A stretch of 64,000 nucleotides of DNA from Lentisphaeria bacterium (GTDB lineage Bacteria; Verrucomicrobiota; Lentisphaeria; Victivallales; Victivallaceae), in assembly GCA_017462015.1 (NCBI GenBank), contig JAFTRX010000054.1, forward strand, positions 62,001 to 126,000, written 5' to 3'. Every line of letters starts with the position of its first letter. The stretch's first letter is position 1. Below are positions 9,538 to 62,338 of the stretch, piece by piece. The position numbers and the translations under genes were made by a program. A model generated the notes under the pieces. The model saw only the letters and a list, made by a program, of their open reading frames with translations, was not told the DNA's origin and searched no databases.

Positions 9538-9647
9538 CTGCGGCGGCGCCTCGTGGGCGCTTCTTGCGGGCAAATCGGCGGACTCATCCTCGGTCGAGTA
9601 CAGTCGTACACTCCCTCGGCTTCGCCTTGATTTACCCGCAACCTTGC
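9538..9647. repeat. Family A inverted-repeat element, copy 2
   Basis: The left arm 9538-9576 begins CTGCGGCGGCGCCTCGTGGGC like copy 1; the right arm (9629-9647) is shortened. The inner pairing is kept but changed in both arms: TTGCGGGCAAATC pairs with GATTTACCCGCAA, where copy 1 has ACCGGC paired with CCGG. The small central hairpin is GTAC-AGTC-GTAC (9598-9609), also changed on both sides relative to copy 1. The left flank AAAAATACAAC is shared with copy 3. Confidence 0.75.
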
Positions 9648-9651
9648 CGCA

Positions 9652-9892
9652 CGATCCATCCGCCGGTCGAGTTCAGTCTTTTTTTCGAACCCTGCGGCGG
9701 CGCCCCGTGGGGAGCAATCAGCGTTCAGCTGATTGCGTGAAGAGCGCCTCCGGCGCGTGAAGATGTGAAGGTGTGAAGTGCGCCCTTGCGGGCGTAAGGA
9801 TGTTATGTTTTTTATTCTTAGGGCGCTTCTTGCTCCTGTCCTCCGTAGCCATCAAGGCGAAGGAGGATGCTCCACGATCCATCCGCCGGTCG
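9652..9892. repeat. Composite of repeat fragments and mini-hairpins upstream of pgi
   Basis: This is the rest of the 9485-9951 gap and holds no gene. GATCCATCCGCCGGTCG occurs at 9652 and 9876 and again at 45678. A second partial family A arm (CTGCGGCGGCGCCCCGTGG) starts at 9692. Between 9715 and 9785 is a chain of short palindromes (GCAATCAGC..GCTGATTGC, GCGCCTCCGGCGC, GCGCCCTTGCGGGCG) separated by repeated GTGAAG units. A reverse fragment containing AAGGCGAAGGAGGAT lies near 9853. Confidence 0.6.
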
Positions 9893-21188: not shown

Positions 21189-22307
21189 ATGATGAAAATT
21201 GTTGCCGATGACAAGATCCCGTATCTGGCAGGAGTGCTGGAGCCGTATGCCGAAGTGGTCTATCTTCCCGGCGGAAAGATTTCTCCGGCCGATTTGAAAG
21301 ATGCCGATGCCCTTATCACCCGTACCCGTACCCGGTGCAACCGGCAGCTTCTGGGAACAAGTTCCGTTAAGCTGGTCGCCACTGCCACCATCGGTATCGA
21401 CCATATCAATACTGCTGAATTGGATGCTCTCGGCATAAAGTATTGCAACGCTCCCGGCTGTAATGCCGCCAGTGTGAAAAATTATATTGCCAGCGCGTTG
21501 GCGGCGCAGAACCGGGATCTGACCGGTTTGACCTTGGGGATCATCGGTGTCGGACATGTGGGAAAACTGGTTGCCGAAGTCGGTTCTGCCATGGGGATGA
21601 AGGTGCTGCTCAACGACCCCCCGCGCGCTGAAGTTGAGGGAAAAAACGGTTTTACAGAACTGGATGAATTGCTTGTAAATTCAGACGTCGTGACCATGCA
21701 TGTGCCGTTGGAACACGGCGGCAAGTATCCTACGGTAAATATGGCAGATGCGGCATTTTTCGCCAAAATGAAGCGCGGCGCATACTTTTTCAACAGCTGC
21801 CGGGGCGAAGTGATGGTCAAAGAGGCGTTCCTTGACGCCAGAAACAGCGGCAAACTTGCCGGAGCTTTGATCGATGTCTGGCCGGATGAACCGGAGTTGG
21901 ATTTGCGTCTGGTCGCGGCAGTGGAGATCGGTACGCCGCACATTGCCGGATATTCCAAAGAGGGCAAAGCCAACGGTACGGCGGCAAGCATCCGCGCGGT
22001 GGCGGAGTATTTTGACTTGCCCGCATTGAAAGATTTTCAGCTGCCGGAAGGAACTTTGCCGAAACCGGTTTTCCCGGAAGATATTGAAATTGACGGTACA
22101 TTGCCGCTGTGGCAGCAGATAAACCGTGCGGTATTGCATGTGTATGATGTGCGCAATGATGCCGCGGCACTTGCTGCTGCTCCGGAAAAATTTGAAGAGT
22201 TGCGCGGCGGATACTGGAATCGCCGGGAATTTACCGCATTTACTGTACATGGAGCTTCGGCAGAGGCGCAGCGCGCACTTGCCGTTTTGGGATTCAACAT
22301 TGGGTGA
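21189..22307 (+). CDS. pdxB: 4-phosphoerythronate dehydrogenase
   Basis: 372 aa from ATG 21189 (MMKIVADDKIPYL; ATG 21192 is equally possible). PdxB oxidises 4-phosphoerythronate with NAD in the DXP-dependent route to pyridoxal phosphate. The 2-hydroxyacid dehydrogenase marks are present: GIIGVGHVGKLVAEVG (nucleotide fold), FNSCRGEVMVKEA (catalytic Arg) and GTPHIAGYSKEGK (catalytic His), and the C-terminal dimerisation domain is of PdxB type. serC at 34429 could supply the next step. It ends 5 bp before the cysK start. Confidence 0.88.
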   Translation: MMKIVADDKIPYLAGVLEPYAEVVYLPGGKISPADLKDADALITRTRTRCNRQLLGTSSVKLVATATIGIDHINTAELDALGIKYCNAPGCNAASVKNYIASALAAQNRDLTGLTLGIIGVGHVGKLVAEVGSAMGMKVLLNDPPRAEVEGKNGFTELDELLVNSDVVTMHVPLEHGGKYPTVNMADAAFFAKMKRGAYFFNSCRGEVMVKEAFLDARNSGKLAGALIDVWPDEPELDLRLVAAVEIGTPHIAGYSKEGKANGTAASIRAVAEYFDLPALKDFQLPEGTLPKPVFPEDIEIDGTLPLWQQINRAVLHVYDVRNDAAALAAAPEKFEELRGGYWNRREFTAFTVHGASAEAQRALAVLGFNIG

Positions 22308-22312
22308 TCTGT

Positions 22313-23230
22313 ATGAAAATCTTCAACAACATTCTCGAAACCGTCGGCGGTACTCCGCTGGTCAAAATCAATAAACTCAACCGCACAAACGCGGAAATCG
22401 TTGCCAAAATCGAATCATTCAACCCCGGCGGTTCCGCTAAAGACCGGGTCGGTATCGCGATGATCGAAGCTGCTGAAAAAGCTGGCATCCTCTCTCCCGG
22501 CGGTTTGATAATCGAACCCACCAGCGGCAACACCGGTGTCGGCTTGGCACTGGCGGCGGCGATAAAGGGTTACCGGCTCATTTTGACGATGCCCGATTCC
22601 ATGAGCGTGGAACGGCGCAAACTTCTGGCGGCATACGGAGCGGAAATCGTTCTAACCCCCGGTGACGGCGGAATGAATGCCGCGATTGCCAAAGCCGAAG
22701 AGCTTCACCGCGCCAACCCCGGTTCCATTATTCCGGCGCAGTTCAGCAATCCCGCCAATCCGGAGATCCACCGCCGTACCACGGCGCAGGAGATCATCGC
22801 TGATACTGACGGCGATATTGCCGCTTTTGTCGCCGGTGTCGGTACCGGAGGAACGTTGACCGGTATTGGAGAAGTGTTGAAAGAGTTGAATAAAGATATC
22901 AGAATCATCGCTGTTGAACCCGATTGCAGTGCGGTCATCTCCGGTAAAGCTCCCGGCGTGCATAAACTCCAGGGTATCGGTGCCGGTTTCATCCCGGAAA
23001 TTCTGAATACTGCGATCATCGACGAAGTCGTTCCCGTCAGCGCTGATGATGCCGGAAAAACGGCGCGTGCTGCCGCGTGTGAAGAAGGATTGCTTATCGG
23101 CATCTCCGGCGGTGCGGCACTCTTTGCCGCCTGTGAAATTGCCAAACGTCCGGAGTTTGCCGGAAAACGTATCGTCGTTTTGCTCCCCGATTCCGGCGAG
23201 CGCTATTTGTCAACGTGGCTGTTTGATTGA
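22313..23230 (+). CDS. cysK: Cysteine synthase A (O-acetylserine sulfhydrylase)
   Basis: 305 aa from ATG 22313. The enzyme makes cysteine from O-acetylserine and sulfide using PLP. Lys43 in SFNPGGSAKDR binds PLP; TSGNTG (70-75) binds the substrate; GVGTGGTLTGIGEVL binds the phosphate; PDSGERYLST closes the protein. The pdxB stop lies 5 bp upstream, so both are probably on one transcript with rng and fmt. A family B repeat begins 3 bp after the stop codon. Confidence 0.95.
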   Translation: MKIFNNILETVGGTPLVKINKLNRTNAEIVAKIESFNPGGSAKDRVGIAMIEAAEKAGILSPGGLIIEPTSGNTGVGLALAAAIKGYRLILTMPDSMSVERRKLLAAYGAEIVLTPGDGGMNAAIAKAEELHRANPGSIIPAQFSNPANPEIHRRTTAQEIIADTDGDIAAFVAGVGTGGTLTGIGEVLKELNKDIRIIAVEPDCSAVISGKAPGVHKLQGIGAGFIPEILNTAIIDEVVPVSADDAGKTARAAACEEGLLIGISGGAALFAACEIAKRPEFAGKRIVVLLPDSGERYLSTWLFD

Positions 23231-23233
23231 CTT

Positions 23234-23322
23234 GGGGCGGCGATCTTGCTTGCTCCCGCGAGCCTTGCGGTCGTCGCCGCTCGGGTCGAGGACAGTAGTC
23301 CACTCCCCTCGCGGCGTTTTGG
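23234..23322 (+). repeat. Family B repeat, head module, tandem copy 1
   Basis: An 89-bp unit beginning GGGGCGGCGATCTTGC and ending CCTCGCGGCG. It contains nested pairings (GCGGCGA with TCGCCGC around CTTGC/GCGAG) and the small GGAC-AGTA-GTCC hairpin. The same unit repeats immediately at 23323. Confidence 0.8.
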
Positions 23323-23545
23323 GGGGCGGCGATCTTGCTTGCTCCCGCGAGCCTTGCTGTCGTCGCCGCTCGGGTCGAGGACAGTAGTCCACTCCCCTCG
23401 CGGCTCCTCGGCAAAACTCCCGGATAGCGGCGCGATATCGCCGCCTATAGGCTTGGCTGGCTGTGTGTCGCCTGACGGCGACCAAGGTAGTGGTGAGTTG
23501 CGCCACCTGCCGGTGGCTTATAGAACGCCTTGCGGCGTTTTTCGG
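23323..23545 (+). repeat. Family B multi-hairpin repeat, full copy
   Basis: After the head module come, in order, GCGGCGCGATATCGCCGC, GTCGCCTGACGGCGAC, GCCACCTGCCGGTGGC and AACGCCTTGCGGCGTT followed by TTTTT. Each is a short self-complementary hairpin separated by a conserved linker. A further isolated copy of the GGCGGCGCGATATCGCCGCC palindrome with its TATAGGCTTGGCTGGC linker follows at 23548-23584. The element fills the 23231-23623 gap between the convergent cysK and MATE genes; no gene is seen here. Confidence 0.8.
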
Positions 23546-23623
23546 GGGGCGGCGCGATATCGCCGCCCTATAGGCTTGGCTGGCTTTTCGTTTTTTCGGC
23601 GCGCGCCAGTTGCCGGATGTCAG

Positions 23624-25009
23624 TTATTTTATCTCCAGATCGTCGAATTGACGGAGTTTAGCCCGTTTGAGCATATTGCGGCAGATAACGAAGAGCATCG
23701 TTCCGTTGATCAAGCCGACGATTGCCCAGGATATCGGGTAGGAGATCATCAAATTTTCCATTGTCTTGTAATGCGGGAAGATAAAGAATACCCACGCCAC
23801 GCGCAGTACACACGCTCCAAACAAGGTGACGATCGTCGGACGGAACGAGTGCCCCAGTCCGCGCAACGCTCCGGCAATGACTTCAATTGCCGCCACCATG
23901 AAGTAGAAGGTCAACTGGTAATTCATCCGCAACACACCCCACTCGATAACTTGCGGATCGGGATTGTATATCGCCAGCAGCTGACGCTTGAAAAGCAATT
24001 CCAGTGCGCTCAATACGATCGCAATGGCACATCCGCAACCCAGACAGAGGAAGATACTGCGCATGACCCGCTTGTATTTTTTTGCTCCGTGGTTCTGTCC
24101 GACAAAACTCACCACCGCAAGTCCGAATGCTCCAAATGCGGTATGTACCACCCCTTCCAGACTCAGTGCCGCCGTACTTCCGGCAATAGCCTGATATCCG
24201 AAAAAGTTGATGGACGACTGGATGATGATGTTGGAGATGGAATAAAACATACCCTGCACTCCGGCGGGTATTCCAATACGGAACATCTCTTTGAATATGC
24301 CCCAGTGGATGTGCAGTTTTTTGAAAAACAACCGGTACTGTTCCCGGGTGCAGACCAGCGCCCGCAGAACCAATACCGCTGATACCAGATTGGAGATCTT
24401 GGTGGCAATGGCAACCCCCGCAGCATCCATTTTAAATACGATGACGAAGATGAGGTTCAGTACGACATTCACAATCCCTGCGACCACCATGTAAATCAGC
24501 GGGCGCTTGGTATCGCCGACCGCCCGGAGAATGGCACTGCCGAAGCTGAACAGTACCATGAACGGTGTACCCAGACACCAAATCCAATAGTAGATTTTAG
24601 CTTTTCCCATGATATCTGCCGGAACTGCCATCAGCTCCAGCATCGGCCCGGTGACGATAAGTCCCAGTATCATCATAAACACACCACCGATACACGCAAT
24701 CGAAATCGCAGTATGGACAGTACGGAATACATTTTTTTCGTCCTTTGCTCCAATGTAACGGGCAACCAGCACGTTGACTCCTGAAGCTATACCCCAGAAC
24801 AGATTGAGCATCAAATTGGTGAATCCCGGCGCCGCGCCGACTGCCGCCATTGCTTTGGCAGAGGCGAAGCGGCCGACAACGATCAAGTCTGCGGCGTGGA
24901 ACATCAGCGCCATGATGTTTGCCATCATCAAAGGAATGGCGAATTGAATTATTTTTTTCAACAACGGCCCGTTACACATGTCGATTTTGTATTTGTTTAC
25001 GGATGCCAT
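23624..25009 (-). CDS. MATE family multidrug/sodium-coupled exporter
   Basis: 461 aa from ATG 25009 with GGGGA upstream; a longer frame to 25102 would start before the promoter. About twelve hydrophobic helices in two bundles of six are visible. Family marks include NIMALMFHAADLIVVGRF in TM1 and FGLAVVSFVGQNHGAKK before TM8. MATE proteins expel cationic drugs or metabolites across the inner membrane using Na+ or H+ gradients. The gene stands alone, downstream of the rlmI end, with its own weak promoter. Confidence 0.9.
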   Translation of the reverse strand: MASVNKYKIDMCNGPLLKKIIQFAIPLMMANIMALMFHAADLIVVGRFASAKAMAAVGAAPGFTNLMLNLFWGIASGVNVLVARYIGAKDEKNVFRTVHTAISIACIGGVFMMILGLIVTGPMLELMAVPADIMGKAKIYYWIWCLGTPFMVLFSFGSAILRAVGDTKRPLIYMVVAGIVNVVLNLIFVIVFKMDAAGVAIATKISNLVSAVLVLRALVCTREQYRLFFKKLHIHWGIFKEMFRIGIPAGVQGMFYSISNIIIQSSINFFGYQAIAGSTAALSLEGVVHTAFGAFGLAVVSFVGQNHGAKKYKRVMRSIFLCLGCGCAIAIVLSALELLFKRQLLAIYNPDPQVIEWGVLRMNYQLTFYFMVAAIEVIAGALRGLGHSFRPTIVTLFGACVLRVAWVFFIFPHYKTMENLMISYPISWAIVGLINGTMLFVICRNMLKRAKLRQFDDLEIK

Positions 25010-25026
25010 AATTTTTTCCCCGGAGA

Positions 25027-25055
25027 TTTTTAAATTGAACTTTTTACTTTGACAA
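25027..25055 (-). promoter_or_regulatory. Possible promoter for the MATE gene
   Basis: TTGTCA (25050-25055, minus strand), 17 bp, TAAAAA (25027-25032). The -10 match is poor. A perfect 16-bp palindrome, TTCCGGCATGCCGGAA (25066-25081), lies just upstream and could be an operator or the end of the rlmI transcript. Confidence 0.4.
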
Positions 25056-25086
25056 CAATATTTGCTTCCGGCATGCCGGAAAAGGC

Positions 25087-26271
25087 TCACATCATAGAAC
25101 ACAACCCTTTCAGGTAAAACGTTTCCGGAACCGAAAGCAGAACCGGATGATCCGGTGCCTGGGTGAATTTTCCGGTGATCTTTGCATCAACACCGGCATC
25201 CAGCGCGGCGGCAGCTGTGATCTTTTGGAACAGGTCGCTGTCCATCAATCCGGAACAGGAAAAGTTGAACATCACTCCTCCGGGATTGAGCAGTTTGAAG
25301 CCCAACCTCGCCAGATCCTGATAACCGCGGCAGCCCCGCATCAACGCTTTTGGGGAATCGATGAGTTTCGGCGGGTCGAGGATGACCAGATCGAACTTTT
25401 CTCCGGCGGCGGCAAGTTCCCGCAGTACGGTGAAACCGTCCCCCTGCCGGTTTTCAAAGTTGGAGGAAAAACCGTTGAGCGCGAGATTTTTTTCCGCCAT
25501 CTTCAATGCCGGTGCGGAAGAGTCCACGTTGATAACACTCTTTGCTCCGGCTCCGAGCGCCACACAACCGAAAGCTCCGGTATAGGAGAAGAGGTTCAGC
25601 ACTCTCCGGTTTTGAGCAAAGCGGCGCAGTGTCCGCCGTGCTTCACGCAAGTCAAAATAAAACCCGGTCTTTTGACCGTATTGCAGATCGACATTATATT
25701 TAAGACCATCTTCGGTGATGACCAGTTTTTCCGGCAACGGCGCTCCGCACAGGAACCCGCATCGGGCGGGCAGTCCTTCTTTTTTGCGGATCGAGGCATC
25801 GGAACGGTCAAACACCGTGTCGATACCGTCAAGTTCCAAAAGCAGTTTGCCGATAAGTTCCCGGTACTTTTCCGCACCGGTACTGAGAAACTGCACGGCG
25901 GCACAGTTGGCGTAACGGTCAACGATTATTCCCGGCAGTTGATCTGACTCTGAATAAATAAGACGGCAACCGCCATCGGGGGCATCCAGACCGAGTGCAC
26001 TGCGCAGATTTGCCGCTTTCATAATGCGGTTGCGGAAAAAGGATTCATCGATTTTTTCTTCCGGATCGAAACTCCACACTCTGCCGCACAACTGCGATTG
26101 CGGTGACCATGCGGCATTTGCCAGATGTTTATCTTTGGCAAACACCTGTATCGTGTCTCCGGGCGCCGGGGAACCGGTCACTTCCTGCACGGCTCCGGAA
26201 TATATCCACGGATGGCGGCGCAGGAGGGATTTTTCCCGTCCGGGTTTGAGATACAAACGGGGTAAACTCAT
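25087..26271 (-). CDS. rlmI: 23S rRNA (cytosine-C5)-methyltransferase, RlmI type
   Basis: 394 aa, as in RlmI, which makes m5C1962 in 23S rRNA. An N-terminal PUA domain (about 1-80, RLYLKPGREKSLLRRHPWIY) is followed by a central domain and a Rossmann-fold methyltransferase: VLNLFSYTGAFGCVAL (SAM loop), LVILDPPKL (motif IV) and FNFSCSGLM (catalytic cysteine strand). Its ATG overlaps the nrdR stop by 4 bp and it ends the long minus-strand chain that starts at rseP. Confidence 0.9.
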   Translation of the reverse strand: MSLPRLYLKPGREKSLLRRHPWIYSGAVQEVTGSPAPGDTIQVFAKDKHLANAAWSPQSQLCGRVWSFDPEEKIDESFFRNRIMKAANLRSALGLDAPDGGCRLIYSESDQLPGIIVDRYANCAAVQFLSTGAEKYRELIGKLLLELDGIDTVFDRSDASIRKKEGLPARCGFLCGAPLPEKLVITEDGLKYNVDLQYGQKTGFYFDLREARRTLRRFAQNRRVLNLFSYTGAFGCVALGAGAKSVINVDSSAPALKMAEKNLALNGFSSNFENRQGDGFTVLRELAAAGEKFDLVILDPPKLIDSPKALMRGCRGYQDLARLGFKLLNPGGVMFNFSCSGLMDSDLFQKITAAAALDAGVDAKITGKFTQAPDHPVLLSVPETFYLKGLCSMM

Positions 26272-45981: not shown

Positions 45982-46037
45982 TGCGGGGAGGGGGAAACCC
46001 ACATTTCTCGTGAAAAGAGGGTTTCCCCCTCCCCGCA
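45982..46037 (+). repeat. Family C hairpin, copy 1 (orphan)
   Basis: Two 26-nt arms (45982-46007, 46012-46037) pair at 24 of 26 positions around a TCGT loop. It is preceded by CGCTTTTCTCGGAAAGGGG, similar to the other two copies, and lies 14 bp beyond the stop of the minus-strand glycosidase gene. The plus strand reads in part like the prepilin leader (SLFSERGGVRGGGNPHFS). Confidence 0.75.
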
Positions 46038-46051
46038 AATACCATCCCCCC

Positions 46052-51333: not shown

Positions 51334-51362
51334 TTGCACATGTCATCACGGTGTGTTATATT
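51334..51362 (+). promoter_or_regulatory. Promoter for the AraC regulator
   Basis: TTGCAC (51334-51339), 17 bp, TATATT (51357-51362). It rules out starts upstream of about 51370 and supports TTG 51393. Confidence 0.6.
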
Positions 51363-51392
51363 ATTTTTGCGGTGAAAACAAGGGAGGTGGAT

Positions 51393-52184
51393 TTGTATTA
51401 CGCATTTTCTTTTTACAACGGTGAGTTGGGTTTTTACGTCCGTTCCATCGGGCACTTTGACTACGCTCCCGGCGAGATGGCGCGGCGGAAAACCGCTGCT
51501 TTCGGCGAGATATTCTGGTGTATTTCCGGCAGTGGTCACTTTGTCGATGCTGAAGGCAACACTCATATCCTGCATCCCAACTGGGTCTGGTATTATCCTC
51601 CCGGTTCAACGCATATCCACGGTGCCGCGTCAGAACATTTTCACTACCGCTGGCTGACGATAGACGGGCCGTTGGCAAAACACCTCTTTGACGGCTTCAA
51701 TATCGTTCCCGGTATGACCTTTGCCGGTATTTGTCCGGAAGAGTATTTTGAACGTATCGCTTCTGCCATTTCCGACCCATCCCGGATGCCTGATATGCTG
51801 TGCAATGCGGTCTGTATCCTCTCTCAAATCAACTCCGGCGCCGGGAAACATGACTCTTCCGGCGGTTCTATCGCCGCCGCCGCCCGCGCTCTTATTGACC
51901 ACAACTTCCGTGATTTGTCGCTCAATGTCGAATCCATTGCCGACCAGCTCGGCCGTCACCGCGTTTCCGTTGCCCGCGATTTCAAACTCATGTACGGCAT
52001 CTCCATTTCCAGCTATCTCCAATCCTGCCGTTATCAGGAGGCTTTTTACCTTATCCGGGAAACAACATTGCCGCTGGCGGAAATCCCTGCTTTGTGCGGT
52101 TTCAGCTCCATCAACTATCTCTCCCGCGTTATCCGCGCCATGACCGGCATTACTCCCGGGGAGCTCCGCCGTTCTGGGAAGTAG
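51393..52184 (+). CDS. AraC-family transcriptional regulator
   Basis: 263 aa from TTG 51393, chosen because AGGGAGG (51381-51387) lies 5 nt upstream and the only alternative in-frame start falls inside the promoter. The N-terminal cupin-like sensor (about 1-140) has aromatic residues typical of sugar-binding members (FGEIFWCISGSGHFV, HPNWVWYYPPGSTHIHG). The C-terminal double helix-turn-helix (about 165-260) includes LSLNVESIADQLGRHRVSVAR and YQEAFYLIRETTLPLAEIPALCGFS, ending with the usual GITPGELRR. It is divergent from, and probably regulates, the C45 operon. A family B repeat starts on the last base of its TAG stop. Confidence 0.88.
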   Translation: MYYAFSFYNGELGFYVRSIGHFDYAPGEMARRKTAAFGEIFWCISGSGHFVDAEGNTHILHPNWVWYYPPGSTHIHGAASEHFHYRWLTIDGPLAKHLFDGFNIVPGMTFAGICPEEYFERIASAISDPSRMPDMLCNAVCILSQINSGAGKHDSSGGSIAAAARALIDHNFRDLSLNVESIADQLGRHRVSVARDFKLMYGISISSYLQSCRYQEAFYLIRETTLPLAEIPALCGFSSINYLSRVIRAMTGITPGELRRSGK

Positions 52185-52395
52185 GGGCGGCGATCTCGCT
52201 TGCTACTGCGAGCCTTTCCGGCGGACGGCGGCTCGGTTGAGGACAGTAGTCCACGCCCTCGCCGCCGCCTTGGAAAAACTCGCATTAGCGGCGCGATATC
52301 GCCGCCTATAGGCTGGGTTGGCGTATGTGTCGCCTGACGGCGACCAGGGTAGTGGTGATGGGCGCCACCTGCCGGTGGCTTATGGTAGGGCTGGC
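52184..52395 (+). repeat. Family B multi-hairpin repeat, copy after araC
   Basis: Begins GGGGCGGCGATCTCGC on the stop codon of araC, then the GGAC-AGTA-GTCC hairpin, the GCGGCGCGATATCGCCGC palindrome, GTCGCCTGACGGCGAC and GCCACCTGCCGGTGGC in the usual order. The head module is more diverged than in other copies. The full gap 52185-52788 holds this, a tandem repeat, an inverted fragment and a terminator; no gene is seen. Confidence 0.78.
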
Positions 52396-52428
52396 GCACT
52401 GCGGAGTGCCACTTGGAGCGGGAGTTTT

Positions 52429-52475
52429 GTACGGATGTGTACGGATGTGTACGGATGTGTACGGATAGGTACGGA
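52429..52475. repeat. 10-bp tandem repeat
   Basis: Three perfect copies of ACGGATGTGT (52431-52460) followed by ACGGATAGGT and ACGGA. It lies between the forward and inverted family B pieces. Confidence 0.85.
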
Positions 52476-52788: not shown

Positions 52789-55700
52789 TTACTTACGATC
52801 TTTGACGAAGGCGAAGTACAGTGCGGGGATGACGTAGAGAGTAAGCAGTGAGGCGACGGTCAGACCGCCGACCACACCGATACCGCAGCTGGCGCGCAGT
52901 TCCGAACCCAGACCGGTACCGAACGCCATCGGCAGCATACCGGCGACCGAGGCGATACTGGTCATGACGATCGGACGGAATTTGGATTCAGTTGCTTTCA
53001 GCATCGCTTCATGGGTGGACATGCCCTGTTCACGCAGCACACCGCATTCGTCGATGATCAGAATGGCGTTGTTCACCACGATACCGATCATCATGACGCC
53101 GCCGAGCAGTCCCATCATGGACATCGGCATCTGGAAGAGCCACAGTGTGGCATACATTCCCAGGAAGCCCAACGGCACGGTGAACATGATGAGGAACGGT
53201 TTCGTCCACGACTCCATGATACCGGCAATCAGCAAATAGGTCAATATTGCCGCAAGTGCGATCACCTGAATAAACTCTCTGGCAGTTTCGTTCATCATCT
53301 CCACGTTACCGCTCATGCGGACGTTGTATCCCGGCGGCAGTGCATTTTTGGCAGTGTCGCCGATGACTTTGGAAACTTCACCCAGAGCTTTGCCGGGGGC
53401 GGTGTTGGCAAAGAGCCACATGGTACGCACTTTGTCGTAACGGTTGATGACCACCGGGCGGGCATCTTCGGTGATGTTGGCGAGAACTTCGGTACTCAAG
53501 GGAGAATTGTTCCTGGTCGCCGGAGCGTTCTGCCGGAGCTGATCTTCTCCATATTCTTTGGCGTTCTTGACGCGGATGTCAAATACACGGGCGCCGCTGC
53601 GGAAGTCACCGACTTCGATACCGTCAAGCGAACCGAGGAGATATTCGTACAACTTTTCTGCAGAAACACCCATGTTTTGCAAAATGGTACGGTTGGGAGA
53701 GATGTTGATGTTCATCTTACGTTCACGGCGGCTGGAGTCAAGGTCGCGCGTCAATCCCAGCTGCGGCAGTTTTTCCATAACGGCGATTTCGGCAGCTTCC
53801 AGCACTTCAAGGTCAGGACCGTTGATAACGCACCGGATTTCCGCACCGCTGCCGCCGAAGGTCGCCGGGATGGAGAGCGTGACCAGACAGTTGTCCATGT
53901 AGGCAAGCTCTTTGCGCAGGATGTCCTGAAGGTCGTAAATGGTCTCTTTGCGTTCCAGTTTGCCGGTGGTTTTGAGGTTGATCTGTCCGATGTAAACGGC
54001 GGCAGACACCTGACCGCGGGTACTGTTGGCAGTACCGATCTGGATATTCATACCCTTGACGAAATCATATTTTTTGATATGATCGGCGGCCTCCATGATG
54101 AGCCGTTCTGTGGTGTCAAGATTGTAGTAGGTCGGAAACTCAAACTTGATCCGGATCTCGCCCTGGTCGCAGAAGGGGAGGAAGCTCAAGCCCACCTGCG
54201 GGACGATGAAGAAGTAGATCGCCGCACTCAAAGCAATAACGATCGTCAGCAATGTCTTGGGATAGCGCGCAGTCCATTCGATACTGCGGTTGAATACGCG
54301 GCAGAGCCAGTCGTAACCTTTGTCCCAGGGGATGAACATGGTTTGGATAAGGCTCTTTTTGTCCCGGTTGTCCACGTTGCCTTTCTTGAGCAGCAGACAG
54401 CTGAGGATCGGGGTCAGCGTGAAGCTGACAAAGAGCGACACCAGTGTTGCCGCCACCATGACCCCGGCGAAGGGAACCATCATACTGCCGATACGGGTTG
54501 TCATCATCATCACCGGAACGAAGACGACCACGTTGGTCAACGCACTTGCCGACACGGCGGCGATAACTTCTCCCGTGCCGTTTTCGGCGGCAGTTTTGAT
54601 GTCTTCCTTGCGGTCAAGGTGTTTATAGATGTTTTCGATGACCACGATGGAGTTGGTGACCAGAACACCCACGGAACAACCCAGCGAGAGCAGTGTCATA
54701 ATGTTGAAGGAGTAATCCAGATATGACATCGCCGCGAAGGTGACGATGACCGAGATCGGCATGGAGATCATAACGATAAAGGTCGAGCGCAGATCGTGGA
54801 GGAAGAGGAAGAGCAGCACAGCGGTCAGGATAACGCCGGTGATGATACTGCTCCAGGCGTCATCCACGGATGCCTGGATGAATTCACCGGAGTCACGGAA
54901 CCAGACCAGCTCCATACCCGTCGGAAGTTCACCGCTTTTCTTCATCTGTTCGACACGTTTGCGGATGCCGTTGATAACTTCGATAGCGTTGGCTTCACCT
55001 TTTTTAACGATGTTGAAGCGGGCGGCGGGTTTGCCGTCAACGTAGGCTTTACTGCGGACTTCGCGGCTCATCAGTTTGATTTCGGCGATGTCGCGCAGAT
55101 AAACGCGTTTGTTCTGATAAGTGCCGATTTCAAGGGATTTGATCTCTTCAAAGTCTTTGAAGTCACCGACAAAGGTGACGTTCTTTTCCACCTTGTCCAT
55201 TTGGATACGGCCGAGAGGTTTGCGGACGTTGTTGGCTTTGAGCTTGCTGACGATGTCGTTGATGGAAATATTCATCGCAGTGAGCTTTTCCCGGTTGAGC
55301 AGGACGTGGATCTGCATCTCGTTGGCACCGTAGACGCGCACTTCACCGACACCGGGGACGGAGGAGAAGCGGTCGGCGATGGTGTCATCGGCGAAGTCAT
55401 AAAGATCATCCTGGGTCCGGTCACCGACCAGAAACGCCTGAACCACGGTGGTGGCGTTGGTGTCGATTTTCCGGATGGTCGGTTCTTTGGCACCGTCAGG
55501 AAGGTCTTCGCGGATACGGTTGAGCGCTTCACGGATGTCGGTGGCGGCAACGTCCACGTCGATACCCATGTTGAACTCCAGCTGAATTTGCGCCTGGTCT
55601 TCGATCGCCATACTGGTGACGTGGCGGATACCGTCCAGAGAGGATACCGCGTCTTCGATACGTTTAATGACTTCGACTTCGATTTCCGAAGGACTGGCAC

Positions 55701-55857
55701 CCTGATATTCGCAGCGCACCAGAACGGTCGGGATCTCCATGTTGGGGAGAAGGTCGATACTGAGTTTGGGATAAAGAGAGGCGCCGATCATAATCAACAC
55801 GATTATAAAAGCCGACATCGCGATCGGGCGGCGCACTGACCATCTGCTTAAAAACAT
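52789..55857 (-). CDS. RND-family efflux pump inner-membrane subunit
   Basis: 1022 aa, standard for AcrB/MexB-type (HAE1) transporters: twelve helices and two large periplasmic loops. Marks include SRWSVRRPIAMSAFI (N-terminus), FVPVMMMTTRIGSMMVPFA, and FCDQGEIRIKFEFP (pore-domain start of the second half). In TM4 the proton-relay pair Asp-Asp of AcrB (LVDDAIVVVEN) is Thr401-Asn402 (LVTNSIVVIEN), and in TM10 the relay lysine is Asn929 (IVVNNAILIIDE, with Asp936 nearby). The pump may use other acids or another energy coupling. It follows its adaptor gene by 23 bp; no TolC-type gene is present. Confidence 0.92.
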   Translation of the reverse strand: MFLSRWSVRRPIAMSAFIIVLIMIGASLYPKLSIDLLPNMEIPTVLVRCEYQGASPSEIEVEVIKRIEDAVSSLDGIRHVTSMAIEDQAQIQLEFNMGIDVDVAATDIREALNRIREDLPDGAKEPTIRKIDTNATTVVQAFLVGDRTQDDLYDFADDTIADRFSSVPGVGEVRVYGANEMQIHVLLNREKLTAMNISINDIVSKLKANNVRKPLGRIQMDKVEKNVTFVGDFKDFEEIKSLEIGTYQNKRVYLRDIAEIKLMSREVRSKAYVDGKPAARFNIVKKGEANAIEVINGIRKRVEQMKKSGELPTGMELVWFRDSGEFIQASVDDAWSSIITGVILTAVLLFLFLHDLRSTFIVMISMPISVIVTFAAMSYLDYSFNIMTLLSLGCSVGVLVTNSIVVIENIYKHLDRKEDIKTAAENGTGEVIAAVSASALTNVVVFVPVMMMTTRIGSMMVPFAGVMVAATLVSLFVSFTLTPILSCLLLKKGNVDNRDKKSLIQTMFIPWDKGYDWLCRVFNRSIEWTARYPKTLLTIVIALSAAIYFFIVPQVGLSFLPFCDQGEIRIKFEFPTYYNLDTTERLIMEAADHIKKYDFVKGMNIQIGTANSTRGQVSAAVYIGQINLKTTGKLERKETIYDLQDILRKELAYMDNCLVTLSIPATFGGSGAEIRCVINGPDLEVLEAAEIAVMEKLPQLGLTRDLDSSRRERKMNINISPNRTILQNMGVSAEKLYEYLLGSLDGIEVGDFRSGARVFDIRVKNAKEYGEDQLRQNAPATRNNSPLSTEVLANITEDARPVVINRYDKVRTMWLFANTAPGKALGEVSKVIGDTAKNALPPGYNVRMSGNVEMMNETAREFIQVIALAAILTYLLIAGIMESWTKPFLIMFTVPLGFLGMYATLWLFQMPMSMMGLLGGVMMIGIVVNNAILIIDECGVLREQGMSTHEAMLKATESKFRPIVMTSIASVAGMLPMAFGTGLGSELRASCGIGVVGGLTVASLLTLYVIPALYFAFVKDRK

Positions 55858-59456: not shown

Positions 59457-60110
59457 ATGGATTTCAACCTTACAGAATTTGCCGGAAAAGCGGGCGTTTC
59501 CGCGCCGGAGGAGTTTGTCTGCCGGTGTGATAAATTGCGGGAATATCTGGAAAAGTATAACGAATCGGTAAATCTTACCCGGATAACCGGAGAAAATGAG
59601 TTTAACATCAAGCATGTCGCCGATTCACTGCTGTTGCCGATGGTGTTTCCGGAGCTGCGCGGAAAGGCGTTGAGAGTCGCGGATATCGGATGCGGAGCCG
59701 GATTCCCCTCGCTGGTGCTGGCGCTGGCATTTCCGGAGTGGGAAATTTGCGCGATAGACTCCATCGGCAAAAAGGTCACTTTTGTCCGGCTTGCGGCGGA
59801 GATGCTTGGTTTGACCAATCTGACTGCAATACAGGGCAGAGCGGTGGAGCTCAACCGCAAGGCGGAGTATCAGAGACGCTTCGATATCGTAACTGCCCGT
59901 GCGGTGGCGCCGTCCCCGAAGATTTACCGGGAAACAGACAAATTTACTGCGAAAAACGGCAGATGGATTTTTTATAAAACACCGGGACAGGCGGCGGAAG
60001 AGCTGCCGGAATTGCAGAAGCTCGCAAAGGTGAAATGGGAGGTCACTCCTGAAATAGAATTGCCGGGAGATGCCGGAAGCAGACTTTTTACCGTTGGAGT
60101 AACGAAGTGA
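59457..60110 (+). CDS. rsmG: 16S rRNA (guanine-527-N7)-methyltransferase
   Basis: 217 aa. RsmG (GidB) methylates G527 of 16S rRNA. The SAM loop DIGCGAGFPS (76-85), the N-terminal YNESVNLTRIT and the motif TARAVAPSPKIY match the family. The downstream gene overlaps its stop by 4 bp. It is not next to gidA/parAB genes as in many bacteria. Confidence 0.93.
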   Translation: MDFNLTEFAGKAGVSAPEEFVCRCDKLREYLEKYNESVNLTRITGENEFNIKHVADSLLLPMVFPELRGKALRVADIGCGAGFPSLVLALAFPEWEICAIDSIGKKVTFVRLAAEMLGLTNLTAIQGRAVELNRKAEYQRRFDIVTARAVAPSPKIYRETDKFTAKNGRWIFYKTPGQAAEELPELQKLAKVKWEVTPEIELPGDAGSRLFTVGVTK

Positions 60111-60823
60111 AACACTTTATCGAAAAGCATATTTGGTTTTTCAAACTGGCAGTGCTGATTGCGAGCGCAATGCCACTGGTGTTCGTGATGCGGCAGCTGG
60201 GCGATCAGTTAGATACGGCGGACAAGAACAACGCTTTGGGATATGGTGCGATGCTGGAAGTTGTGGTGTGGGGGTTCCCCTTGCTGGCATCGTTGTACTT
60301 TTTCGGTATAGTCGGAGCCAGTTTGTATTCAGGAACGTTTGCGCGAGGGGTCGTGGATTTTCTGCTTTATCCGCGCCATTTTCTGAAGGAATCTCCCGTG
60401 CTTATCTCCCGGCAGAAGGGGTTGATTGCCAACGGAGAGTATAAACTTGCGGAAAAAGAGTTGTGCGAAATGAGGTTGAAGAGACCGGCAGCGCCGGAGG
60501 TGGCATTGCAGTTGGCGGAGCTGCATGCGGTATATTTCCGTTCGCCGGAAACGGCGGTTTTGGATATACTCTATTATCTGGATATGAGAAAGTTTCGGCA
60601 TCATCCGTTGAATTTGACCATCATGATGCGTTACGCGGATTTTCAGCAGGAGTTGGGGAGATTTGAAGAAGCGGCGCAGCTTCTTGAAAATGAGTCCGGC
60701 AAGCTGTTTTACACGGCAAGAGAGCGCAAGGTATTGTGGCAACGCTCTCGCTCGCTGTCGGGCGGCGATCTCGCTTGCTCCCGCGAGCCTTGCTGTCGTC
60801 GCCGCTCGGGTCGAGGACAGTAG
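60107..60823 (+). CDS. Membrane-anchored TPR-like protein, 3' end overwritten by a repeat
   Basis: 238 aa. Two hydrophobic helices (about 13-27 and 51-75) are followed by a soluble helical part with TPR-like spacing (LIANGEYKLAEKELCEMRL, PEVALQLAELHAVYF, YADFQQELGRFEEAAQLLE). From about residue 219 the sequence GGDLACSREPCCRRRSGRGQ is encoded by a family B repeat, whose GGACAGTAG supplies the stop codon. The gene is therefore probably truncated or given a new end by the repeat; the original C-terminus is not visible. It is coupled to rsmG by a 4-bp overlap. Confidence 0.7.
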   Translation: MKHFIEKHIWFFKLAVLIASAMPLVFVMRQLGDQLDTADKNNALGYGAMLEVVVWGFPLLASLYFFGIVGASLYSGTFARGVVDFLLYPRHFLKESPVLISRQKGLIANGEYKLAEKELCEMRLKRPAAPEVALQLAELHAVYFRSPETAVLDILYYLDMRKFRHHPLNLTIMMRYADFQQELGRFEEAAQLLENESGKLFYTARERKVLWQRSRSLSGGDLACSREPCCRRRSGRGQ

Positions 60824-60979
60824 TCCACTCCCCTCGCGGCTCCTCGGCAAAACTCCCGGATAGCGGCGCGATATCGCCGCCTACGGAGTTGGCTGGCTAT
60901 GTGTCGCCTGACGGCGACCAAGGTTGTGGTGAGTTGCGCCACCTGCCGGTGGCTTATGAACGCCTTGCGGCGTTTTTTT
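60760..60979 (+). repeat. Family B multi-hairpin repeat, copy in the rsmG-operon end
   Basis: All modules are present in the standard order, ending in AACGCCTTGCGGCGTT followed by TTTTT. It begins inside the coding frame of the TPR-like gene. The rest of the 60824-61195 gap is unrecognised sequence plus a family C hairpin; no gene is seen. Confidence 0.8.
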
Positions 60980-61128: not shown

Positions 61129-61188
61129 TTCGGGGGGAAGGGGAAAAATTCTTTTCTCGTGAAAAGAATTTTTCCCCTTCCCCCCGAA
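61129..61188 (+). repeat. Family C hairpin, copy 3 (orphan, perfect stem)
   Basis: A perfect 28-bp stem (61129-61156 with 61161-61188) around a TCGT loop. CGCTTTTCTTAAAAAGGG precedes it. On the plus strand one frame is open through it and reads QKISLFLKRDRGFGG then FLVKRIFPLPPEM, like the prepilin leader. It lies 7 bp beyond the stop of the minus-strand sialidase-fold gene and could also terminate it. Confidence 0.8.
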
Positions 61189-61195
61189 ATGCCAG

Positions 61196-62338
61196 TCACC
61201 TTTTGAAAAAGGGTTCAAGGTCGGATTTGTCTTCTGCGCGCTGGTGTTCAAGAGCAGCGGCATCGTATGGTTTTGCCGGAACTTTGCTGATGATCTGGTT
61301 TAAGAATGAGTTCCGGTCAATGACAGTTCCGGCGATGATATCTTCTTCGCGGAAGCGGGAGATTACGATTTCTCCGAAGGAGAAGCGGCCCCGGTCATGG
61401 ACGAGGTAGATTGTACCGTCGGCATCCTGCACGGCATCGGGATAGGAGGATTGACCTGGGTCGATCAGCAGAGAGTGTTTCCAGGTATGGCCGTCATCAT
61501 CGGAGAGGAACGCGGTCATGCGGGTGCGTTCGCGATCGGAGGATGACTGATGGCGGCTGTCATTTTTTATCAGAATGACGTTACCGGAGTTGAGGCGGCG
61601 CAGAAAGAAGCGTGCGGAGGGGTCGGCGATGCCGGTCAGGCGGGAGTCGCTCCAAGAGGCTCCGCCGTCACAGGATATGCTTTCTGCCAGAAAACCGACA
61701 CCGACAGCGGTACGGGCGAGGAACCACAGAGTGCCGTCATTGCGTTCAAGAATCATCGGTTCGTCAAAATTTCTGGCGCAGCAGCGTTTTGCCGCCTGAC
61801 GGCGAGTCCAACTTTCGCCGTTGTCTGCGGATTCGGAGTAGTGATAATTGCCTTCACGGAAATCGTAAGCGCACAAAAGCCATCTGCCGTCTTTGAGAAC
61901 GGTCGGCTGACAGCGGAGGAAACCGGGCGTGACGAAACGCGGTTCGGTGAAAACGAGTGTTTCCGCATCCGGATCGTTGCAGATGGCGGCAAAGGTGGAC
62001 AAGTGACGTTCATCATCGAAGGGGTAGTGAAAGTCGCGCTGAGTCCAGAAAATCCACATGCGGTCAGCGGGATCGAGAAAGAGTTGGATGTCGATACAGC
62101 AGATGATGTGTTCTCTCAAACTGGGGATGACCAGAAGCGGTTCGCTCCAGTGGCGGCCGTTATCATCGCTTTTGACGAGGACGTTGTAGTTGCGCAAAGA
62201 TGGTTCTCTGCTGCCGCCGGAGTACCAGCCGGCATAAAGTCTGCCCTTCGGGGTGCGTAAAATGGTGGGGCAGCCCTGCCAGAAACGTTGGGATTCAGCA
62301 AATTCGATACCGGGAGAAAGATTCAGTACTCCATGCAT
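61196..62338 (-). CDS. Sialidase-fold (BNR/Asp-box) protein
   Basis: 380 aa with four Asp boxes: SDDNGRHW (57-64), SADNGESW (170-177), SCDGGASW (222-229), SDDDGHTW (279-286), the spacing of a six-bladed sialidase propeller. Arginine and glutamate positions fit a possible active site, but the typical N-terminal FRIP motif of exo-alpha-sialidases is replaced by GCPTILRTPKGRL. There is no signal peptide, so it is cytoplasmic or the true start lies elsewhere. AAAGGA precedes the ATG and a promoter lies at 62373-62400. It stands alone. Confidence 0.82.
   Translation of the reverse strand: MHGVLNLSPGIEFAESQRFWQGCPTILRTPKGRLYAGWYSGGSREPSLRNYNVLVKSDDNGRHWSEPLLVIPSLREHIICCIDIQLFLDPADRMWIFWTQRDFHYPFDDERHLSTFAAICNDPDAETLVFTEPRFVTPGFLRCQPTVLKDGRWLLCAYDFREGNYHYSESADNGESWTRRQAAKRCCARNFDEPMILERNDGTLWFLARTAVGVGFLAESISCDGGASWSDSRLTGIADPSARFFLRRLNSGNVILIKNDSRHQSSSDRERTRMTAFLSDDDGHTWKHSLLIDPGQSSYPDAVQDADGTIYLVHDRGRFSFGEIVISRFREEDIIAGTVIDRNSFLNQIISKVPAKPYDAAALEHQRAEDKSDLEPFFKR

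Follow-up and report, generated by a model that had tools for sequence, protein, structure and literature searches.

A candidate REP/BIME-like dispersed element of one Lentisphaeria family with a strand-specific hairpin at gene 3′ ends

Well-studied bacterial genomes are rich in REP repeats. Those of enterobacteria and pseudomonads, which form BIMEs and fall into the GTAG and CGTC super-families, are extragenic imperfect palindromes that occur in dozens to hundreds of copies per genome, near the 3′ ends of ORFs and in mosaics. REP units measure 20–40 bp and lie less than 20 bp from ORF 3′ ends, and CGTC REPs have no dedicated transposase (PMC3733652). For the transposase TnpA-REP, conserved stem mismatches and strand specificity matter, and cleavage takes place at CT or CA (PMC8266576). 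REPs situated within 15 nt of a stop codon have been reported to affect translation (PMC12306157).

The element described here was found in a 64-kb stretch of DNA (the window) on contig C129 of a 2.8-Mb draft genome of a gut Lentisphaeria (G000). It is a high-copy extragenic imperfect palindrome, which is the copy-number trait of the GTAG super-family, and it resembles CGTC REPs (PMC3733652) in that no dedicated transposase was found, in its case in three carrier genomes. It departs from REPs and BIMEs in being a 121-nt single hairpin (module A) with a terminator-like module, set in one orientation to the gene and at one gene end only; its outer stems are exchanged wholesale around a fixed inner core, and no RAYT is present in three carrier genomes. 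The 5′ flanks show no consistent GTAG at the foot of module A, and module A, at ~121 nt, is longer than the 20–40 bp unit of REPs (PMC3733652). For want of agreement in the foot, the size and the RAYT, we do not class the element as a REP. A literature search found no paper linking Lentisphaerae with REP sequences.

Copies in the 64-kb window

The sequence-only reading of the window had reported three long copies in plus orientation, each behind a plus-strand gene and facing a minus-strand gene, and both statements hold. The copies lie at 23.23–23.55, 52.18–52.40 and 60.76–60.98 kb, and all three are flanked in this manner: the first by cysteine synthase A (cysK, 22304–23230, plus strand; TIGR01139, 429 bits, over the cut-off) and MatE (23624–25102, minus strand), the second by an AraC-type gene (51351–52184, plus strand) and an AcrB-type gene (52789–55857, minus strand), and the third by two ORFs (60107–60823, plus strand; 61196–62338, minus strand). 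The stretches 23324–23521 and 60760–60957 are 96% identical, and the 52.2-kb copy shows 76–87% identity. Each long copy consists of two modules, module A (~121 nt) and then module B, the latter comprising two or three hairpins plus, in about half of the copies, a terminator-like end. A GC stem followed by a T-run closes the 23.3- and 60.8-kb copies and is absent at 52.2 kb, in agreement with the claim that two of the three end in this way.

Behind cysK, the first element remnant begins 3 nt past the TGA. This remnant (23234–23322, plus strand) fuses the first 82 nt of module A with the end of module B (GGCGTTTT) and is 99% identical to 23323–23404; it is the 89-bp duplicated head, with starts at 23234 and 23323, that had been noted previously. 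The same arrangement is present in L004, and because L003 carries the whole 222-bp A+B tandem, the preferred reading of the 89-bp tandem is an A+B unit minus its middle, which was probably lost between GCGGC repeats. The full copy of module A that follows (23325–23445, plus strand) is a 121-nt imperfect hairpin with the outer stem GGCGGCGATCTTGC / GCGATATCGCCGCC, a covariance-model score of 141.2 bits (G000:C129:85325-85445) and a predicted folding energy of −64.3 kcal/mol (z −4.9). Module B (23446–23545, plus strand) contains the hairpins GTCGCC..GGCGAC and GCCACC..GGTGGC, then the terminator-like AACGCCTTGCGGCGTTTTT; the predicted fold of 23445–23545 has an energy of −46.3 kcal/mol (z −3.2) and includes a terminator-like match. 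The array ends in the remnant of a third, collapsed unit (23546–23590, plus strand; GGGGCGGCGCGATATCGCCGCCCTATAGGCTTGGCTGGC; BLAST match to query 105–140), in which the head is fused to the module A tail plus the start of module B.

The module A at 52.2 kb (52186–52306, plus strand; 130.6 bits) has a second-type inner arm, begins 1 nt past the stop codon of the AraC-type gene and has an orthologous copy in a close relative, G003 (L042, L219). Its predicted fold reaches −77.6 on the top strand and −82.9 on the bottom strand, and by sequence comparison the module B behind it (52307–52396, plus strand) is without a T-run terminator. At 52425–52475, behind this copy, is a short tandem array of about four to five units of TACGGATGTG. 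The top-scoring module A (60761–60881, plus strand; 142.3 bits) is followed by a module B (60882–60977, plus strand) in which the sequence and a terminator-like match indicate the putative terminator AACGCCTTGCGGCGTTTTTTT. The ORF ahead of this copy stays open up to the element and terminates 63 nt into module A, and the insertion may thus have altered the C-terminus of the protein.

Two distant relatives of module A, designated class 2 (487–606, 53.1 bits; 9542–9664, 54.6 bits; both plus strand), have the same core and another outer stem. They belong to a second repeat family, with many more members in G000, that combines the inner core of module A with the outer stem TTGCGGGCAAATC/GATTTACCCGCAA, of which paired variants occur, and with conserved flanks of its own, AACAACCTGC..GGTCGAGTTC. 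Nearness to stop codons is less clear as a rule in this second family than in module A copies. In L050 (G000:C109:26170), L183 (C93:18917), L185 (C114:3732), L186 (C54:12783) and L304, module A sits inside second-family flanks, as if cores had been swapped at the GGCGG/CCGCC stem base. A separate repeat at 45985–46039 and 61134–61188 forms long palindromes, GGGGAAGGGGAAAAATTC..GAATTTTTCCCCTTCCCC, just past the ends of minus-strand genes.

Across the wider set of copies, a terminator-like hairpin with a T-run was found on the top strand in 48 of 97 and on the bottom strand in 11 of 97, compared with 26% in Markov controls. The motif GGTAGT is present in module B of 48 of 100 copies, about 10 nt ahead of a hairpin, and the copies of the carrier genomes G018 and G042 have a different module B of similar build. 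The two modules are separable, because module B repeats alone in tandem at L013, L015 and L019. At these loci, at L017 and at others, a further repeated stretch, CTCACTCCAGTTGGCTGTCCTACAAGTCCTACTTGTCC...GCTCCACGTGGC, often lies directly past module B. Near-identical arrays (~95% alike) of half-length module A plus module B, L187 (G000:C61:1-3400) and L026 (C13:10575-12255), occupy the ends of two contigs.

Fold and strand preference of module A

The repeat had been described from the sequence as a string of small hairpins, a description that is not borne out for its first ~121 nt: RNAalifold, single-copy folds and covariation all reveal one long imperfect hairpin. Separate small hairpins were rejected, as the covariation resides in the long-range pairing and single copies of every subfamily fold as one hairpin (z −2.4 to −7.8). 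In an alignment of 50 copies (A1), 97.3% of cells are paired and both sides have changed in 16 of 31 pairs, with 114 double-change cells against 25.5 in shuffles and 1–11 in slid controls. When copies from a further genus of the family were added (A3), both sides have changed in 26 of 29 tested pairs, and double-change cells number 224 against 67.6 in shuffles and 45 in the best slid control; A3 was fitted to the covariance model and hence leans toward structure, and A1, an ordinary MAFFT alignment, agrees with it. The fold of module A is thereby shown to be kept by paired changes. The outer stem is highly varied in sequence yet always paired, and the inner core is nearly invariant (GCCTT..GGTCGAGKAC..GTMCACTCC..AAAAC). 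Wobble counts in paired columns, with one misassigned column pair removed, are 24 G.U to 19 A.C, a balance that does not separate RNA from DNA.

Covariation, together with the presence of the element at orthologous sites in independent genomes from other projects, refutes the notion that the copies are unrelated GC-rich palindromes or an assembly artefact, which we regard as barely credible. What could be said for an artefact is that repeats often break contigs and that no fewer than 13 of the 50 strong copies are found 300 nt or less from a contig end, where 2.8% are expected; this clustering also means that the true copy number is higher than the number found.

The bottom strand folds better as RNA in 105 of 105 copies, by a mean of 12.3 kcal/mol, whereas dinucleotide shuffles predict from composition alone a strand difference of 3.5 ± 3.8 kcal/mol. 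With DNA parameters the bottom strand is the better folded in 104 of 105 copies, and all 20 copies listed for other species and genera show the same advantage; these copy counts are not independent, because the copies are related. Where the top strand has fixed C.A mismatches, the bottom strand has G.U pairs, and the fixed internal loop becomes tandem G.A/A.G there. The strand bias is one inherited property seen repeatedly, yet it survives the complete replacement of the outer stems. Of the earlier suggestion of a structured RNA, the structure stands, with paired substitutions in both A1 and A3, although it is the bottom strand that folds better, which leaves an RNA of the top strand no more than a candidate. 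A structured antisense RNA, transcribed from the bottom strand toward the 3′ end of the upstream gene, would account for the uniform strand advantage and for the conversion of the mismatches and the internal loop into G.U and tandem G.A/A.G; it is rendered improbable by the same preference under DNA parameters and by a placement that tracks the top-strand gene, the downstream gene being co-directional in 18 of 68 copies.

Placement, distribution and turnover

The position statistics cover G000, G003, G018 and G042, with genes from a small hexamer-based caller, and single distances may for that reason be wrong. The upstream gene lies on the same strand in 94 of 102 copies and on the opposite strand in 8. 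Among 57 copies that have genes on both sides and no preceding element, 40 start no more than 12 nt past a stop codon, a REP-like location for which uniform placement in the same gap predicts 3.3; this number was reached in 0 of 200,000 simulations, the maximum being 14. All three kinds of stop codon occur in the upstream genes. A further 21 copies come after another copy or fragment, and 17 copies begin directly past a T-run, which in many cases belongs to an intrinsic terminator or a tRNA. A second genus follows the same rule, with L330 and L335 behind stop codons and L338 and L339 behind tRNA-like sequence and a T-run. The conserved feature is a position immediately past a stop codon or terminator, with the element reading in the same direction as the gene.

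An insulator between convergent genes, as proposed for the three copies of the window, is not borne out as a rule, and copies are not confined to convergent gaps: where the downstream gene could be called confidently, it is convergent in 50 cases and co-directional in 18, compared with a window baseline of 12:7 for gaps of at least 60 nt (Fisher p = 0.40).

The sequence-only reading had called for a covariance-model search of the genome and its relatives. Based on 50 copies, such a model found at least 132 matches in G000, about 50 of them close (>85 bits) and about 80 more distant, and detected the element in 22 relatives; BLAST found at least 58 matches in G000, and both whole-genome numbers are far above chance. 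The carriers are 23 of the 137 genomes of the order, all in four genera of one family and none elsewhere, and many congeners are without the element. Copies are extragenic and intergenic and form subfamilies, tandem arrays occur, and the outer stems differ widely even inside one genome (G118). A pattern scan of 84,980 genomes returned Lentisphaeria MAGs and scattered single matches in unrelated phyla, which were taken as chance. A phage origin was rejected, the core pattern having no match in 2.9 million viral contigs. None of 4227 Rfam families matches in the window at the gathering score, and a permissive Rfam search gave far sub-threshold matches only, mostly to animal miRNA models.

Comparison with G003 reveals gain and loss of the element between close species. 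There, cysK encodes a 96% identical protein and is without the element; a native terminator-like hairpin, which is missing in G000, lies past its stop codon. Among 12 further sites that could be aligned between the two genomes, 6 are without the element in G003 (C92, C74, C30:48364, C93, C55 and C78:5068), 5 are occupied in both and 1, C26:197968, holds another hairpin in G003 at the place of the element, followed by an unchanged type of module B. The native terminator-like hairpin of G003 follows the stop codon at C92 and C30:48364 as well as at cysK. Some sites are common to G018 or G042, at times with different subfamilies. The proposal of a mobile miniature element thus gains from the copy number, the subfamilies, the tandem arrays and the presence or absence of copies between close species; on the other side, no mover was found.

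These observations also bear on a conserved structured RNA of gene 3′ ends, a cis-acting 3′ UTR element in which module A, read in the mRNA, would govern translation termination, mRNA decay or transcriptional read-through and which would be kept by selection and not be mobile. Consistent with such an RNA are the deep covariation, a core fixed across two genera of the family, the sense orientation at 0–12 nt from a stop codon in 50 of 107 copies overall, the terminator-like hairpin that follows, and the sites common to several species. We nevertheless consider it unlikely, although it carries more weight than any other rival: the bottom strand outfolds the mRNA strand in all copies, half of the sites compared have no element in the closest species, tandem arrays and remnants occur, many congeners lack the element, and copies also stand behind terminators and tRNAs, outside the mRNA.

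Candidate movers and the favoured reading

REPINs with their RAYT/TnpA-REP transposases (REPtrons) have in common with the element a strand-specific hairpin, conserved mismatches and CT or CA at the feet; CT lies directly past the hairpin in most copies, and CA lies ahead of it in 22 of 40 copies of G018 and G042. Searches for the Y1 (PF01797) REP transposase found none in G000, G003 and G018, which are drafts in a set of assemblies that are 72–93% complete and can lose genes, and a single one in G008 that has no flanking copies of the element. A genuine REP/REPIN family, mobilised by a RAYT that is missing from the draft assemblies, would explain the copy number, the extragenic placement, the imperfect hairpin with its conserved mismatches and the CT/CA feet. 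With no Y1_Tnp in three carrier genomes, a length of 121 nt against the 20–40 bp of REPs (PMC3733652), and no GTAG tag at the foot, we judge it very unlikely.

Integron attC sites are likewise conserved in fold more than in sequence, are folded as the bottom strand and stand behind stop codons in gene sense, as strand-specific imperfect hairpins of similar length. That the copies are attC-like recombination sites left behind genes is nonetheless extremely doubtful. The integron integrase model TIGR02249 had no match over its cut-off in seven genomes, and the tyrosine recombinases found are generic only, as in all 14 controls. By inspection there are no R″/R′ boxes (RYYYAAC/GTTRRRY), the element ending in GGCGGCGATC...GATATCGCCGCC or CGGAGCGATC...GATATCGCTCCT, and the host genes are not cassettes and stay put where the element is absent. 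Group IIC introns insert behind terminators, and the element shares with them the position directly behind terminator hairpins; it differs in its length of 121 nt, in having no Rfam match at the gathering score, and in that reverse transcriptase (PF00078) is absent from G000, G003 and G042. G018 has a fragment-size match to PF00078 in a 104-aa frame.

The reading that we favour, at just short of an even chance, is that of a REP/BIME-like dispersed element of one Lentisphaeria family, a strand-specific hairpin that has settled at gene 3′ ends. REPs and BIMEs are the closest known kind, given the copy number, the imperfect hairpins with conserved mismatches and the nearness to ORF 3′ ends (PMC3733652; PMC8266576; PMC12306157). 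Movement, the enzyme for it and any influence on expression are inferred: the part recognised would be the single ~121-nt imperfect hairpin of module A, and a strand-specific hairpin-binding enzyme would take the single-stranded DNA of the bottom strand as its substrate and move or copy the element, gene 3′ ends being the places where insertions would land or survive. A landed element would become the new 3′ untranslated region of the gene, with module A within reach of the ribosome at the stop codon and with module B, in about half of the copies, supplying a new terminator that would replace the native one.

Four observations favour a strand-specific hairpin that acts at the DNA level: the strand bias holds with DNA parameters, CT lies past the hairpin and CA ahead of it, sites turn over, and copies stand behind terminators. 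A role as RNA is favoured by the distance to the stop codon and by the terminator-like module. Both roles may apply together, the element spreading as DNA and then becoming the 3′ end of the gene at its landing site. Against the REP/BIME-like reading, the variety of outer stems in G118 exceeds what recent copying predicts and is more like that of old functional elements, and orthologous gene ends with copies in several species also fit selection; the lack of a Y1/HUH REP transposase in G000, G003 and G018 and of GTAG at the foot of module A likewise counts against it. A bolder alternative, which we think quite unlikely, is a new class of element, a strand-specific DNA or RNA hairpin with a fixed core and an interchangeable outer stem that would target the end points of translation or transcription, swap out the native terminator and be moved by neither a Y1 transposase nor a reverse transcriptase.

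The repeat family bears on why REPs settle at gene ends and on how transposase-less REPs move. It belongs to a little-studied phylum, and in it a strong stop-codon rule with a direction, visible selection on the fold and empty sites in a close relative come together with no known mover in the main carriers, which makes both questions testable; a covariance model is at hand with which the element can be detected across a whole bacterial family.
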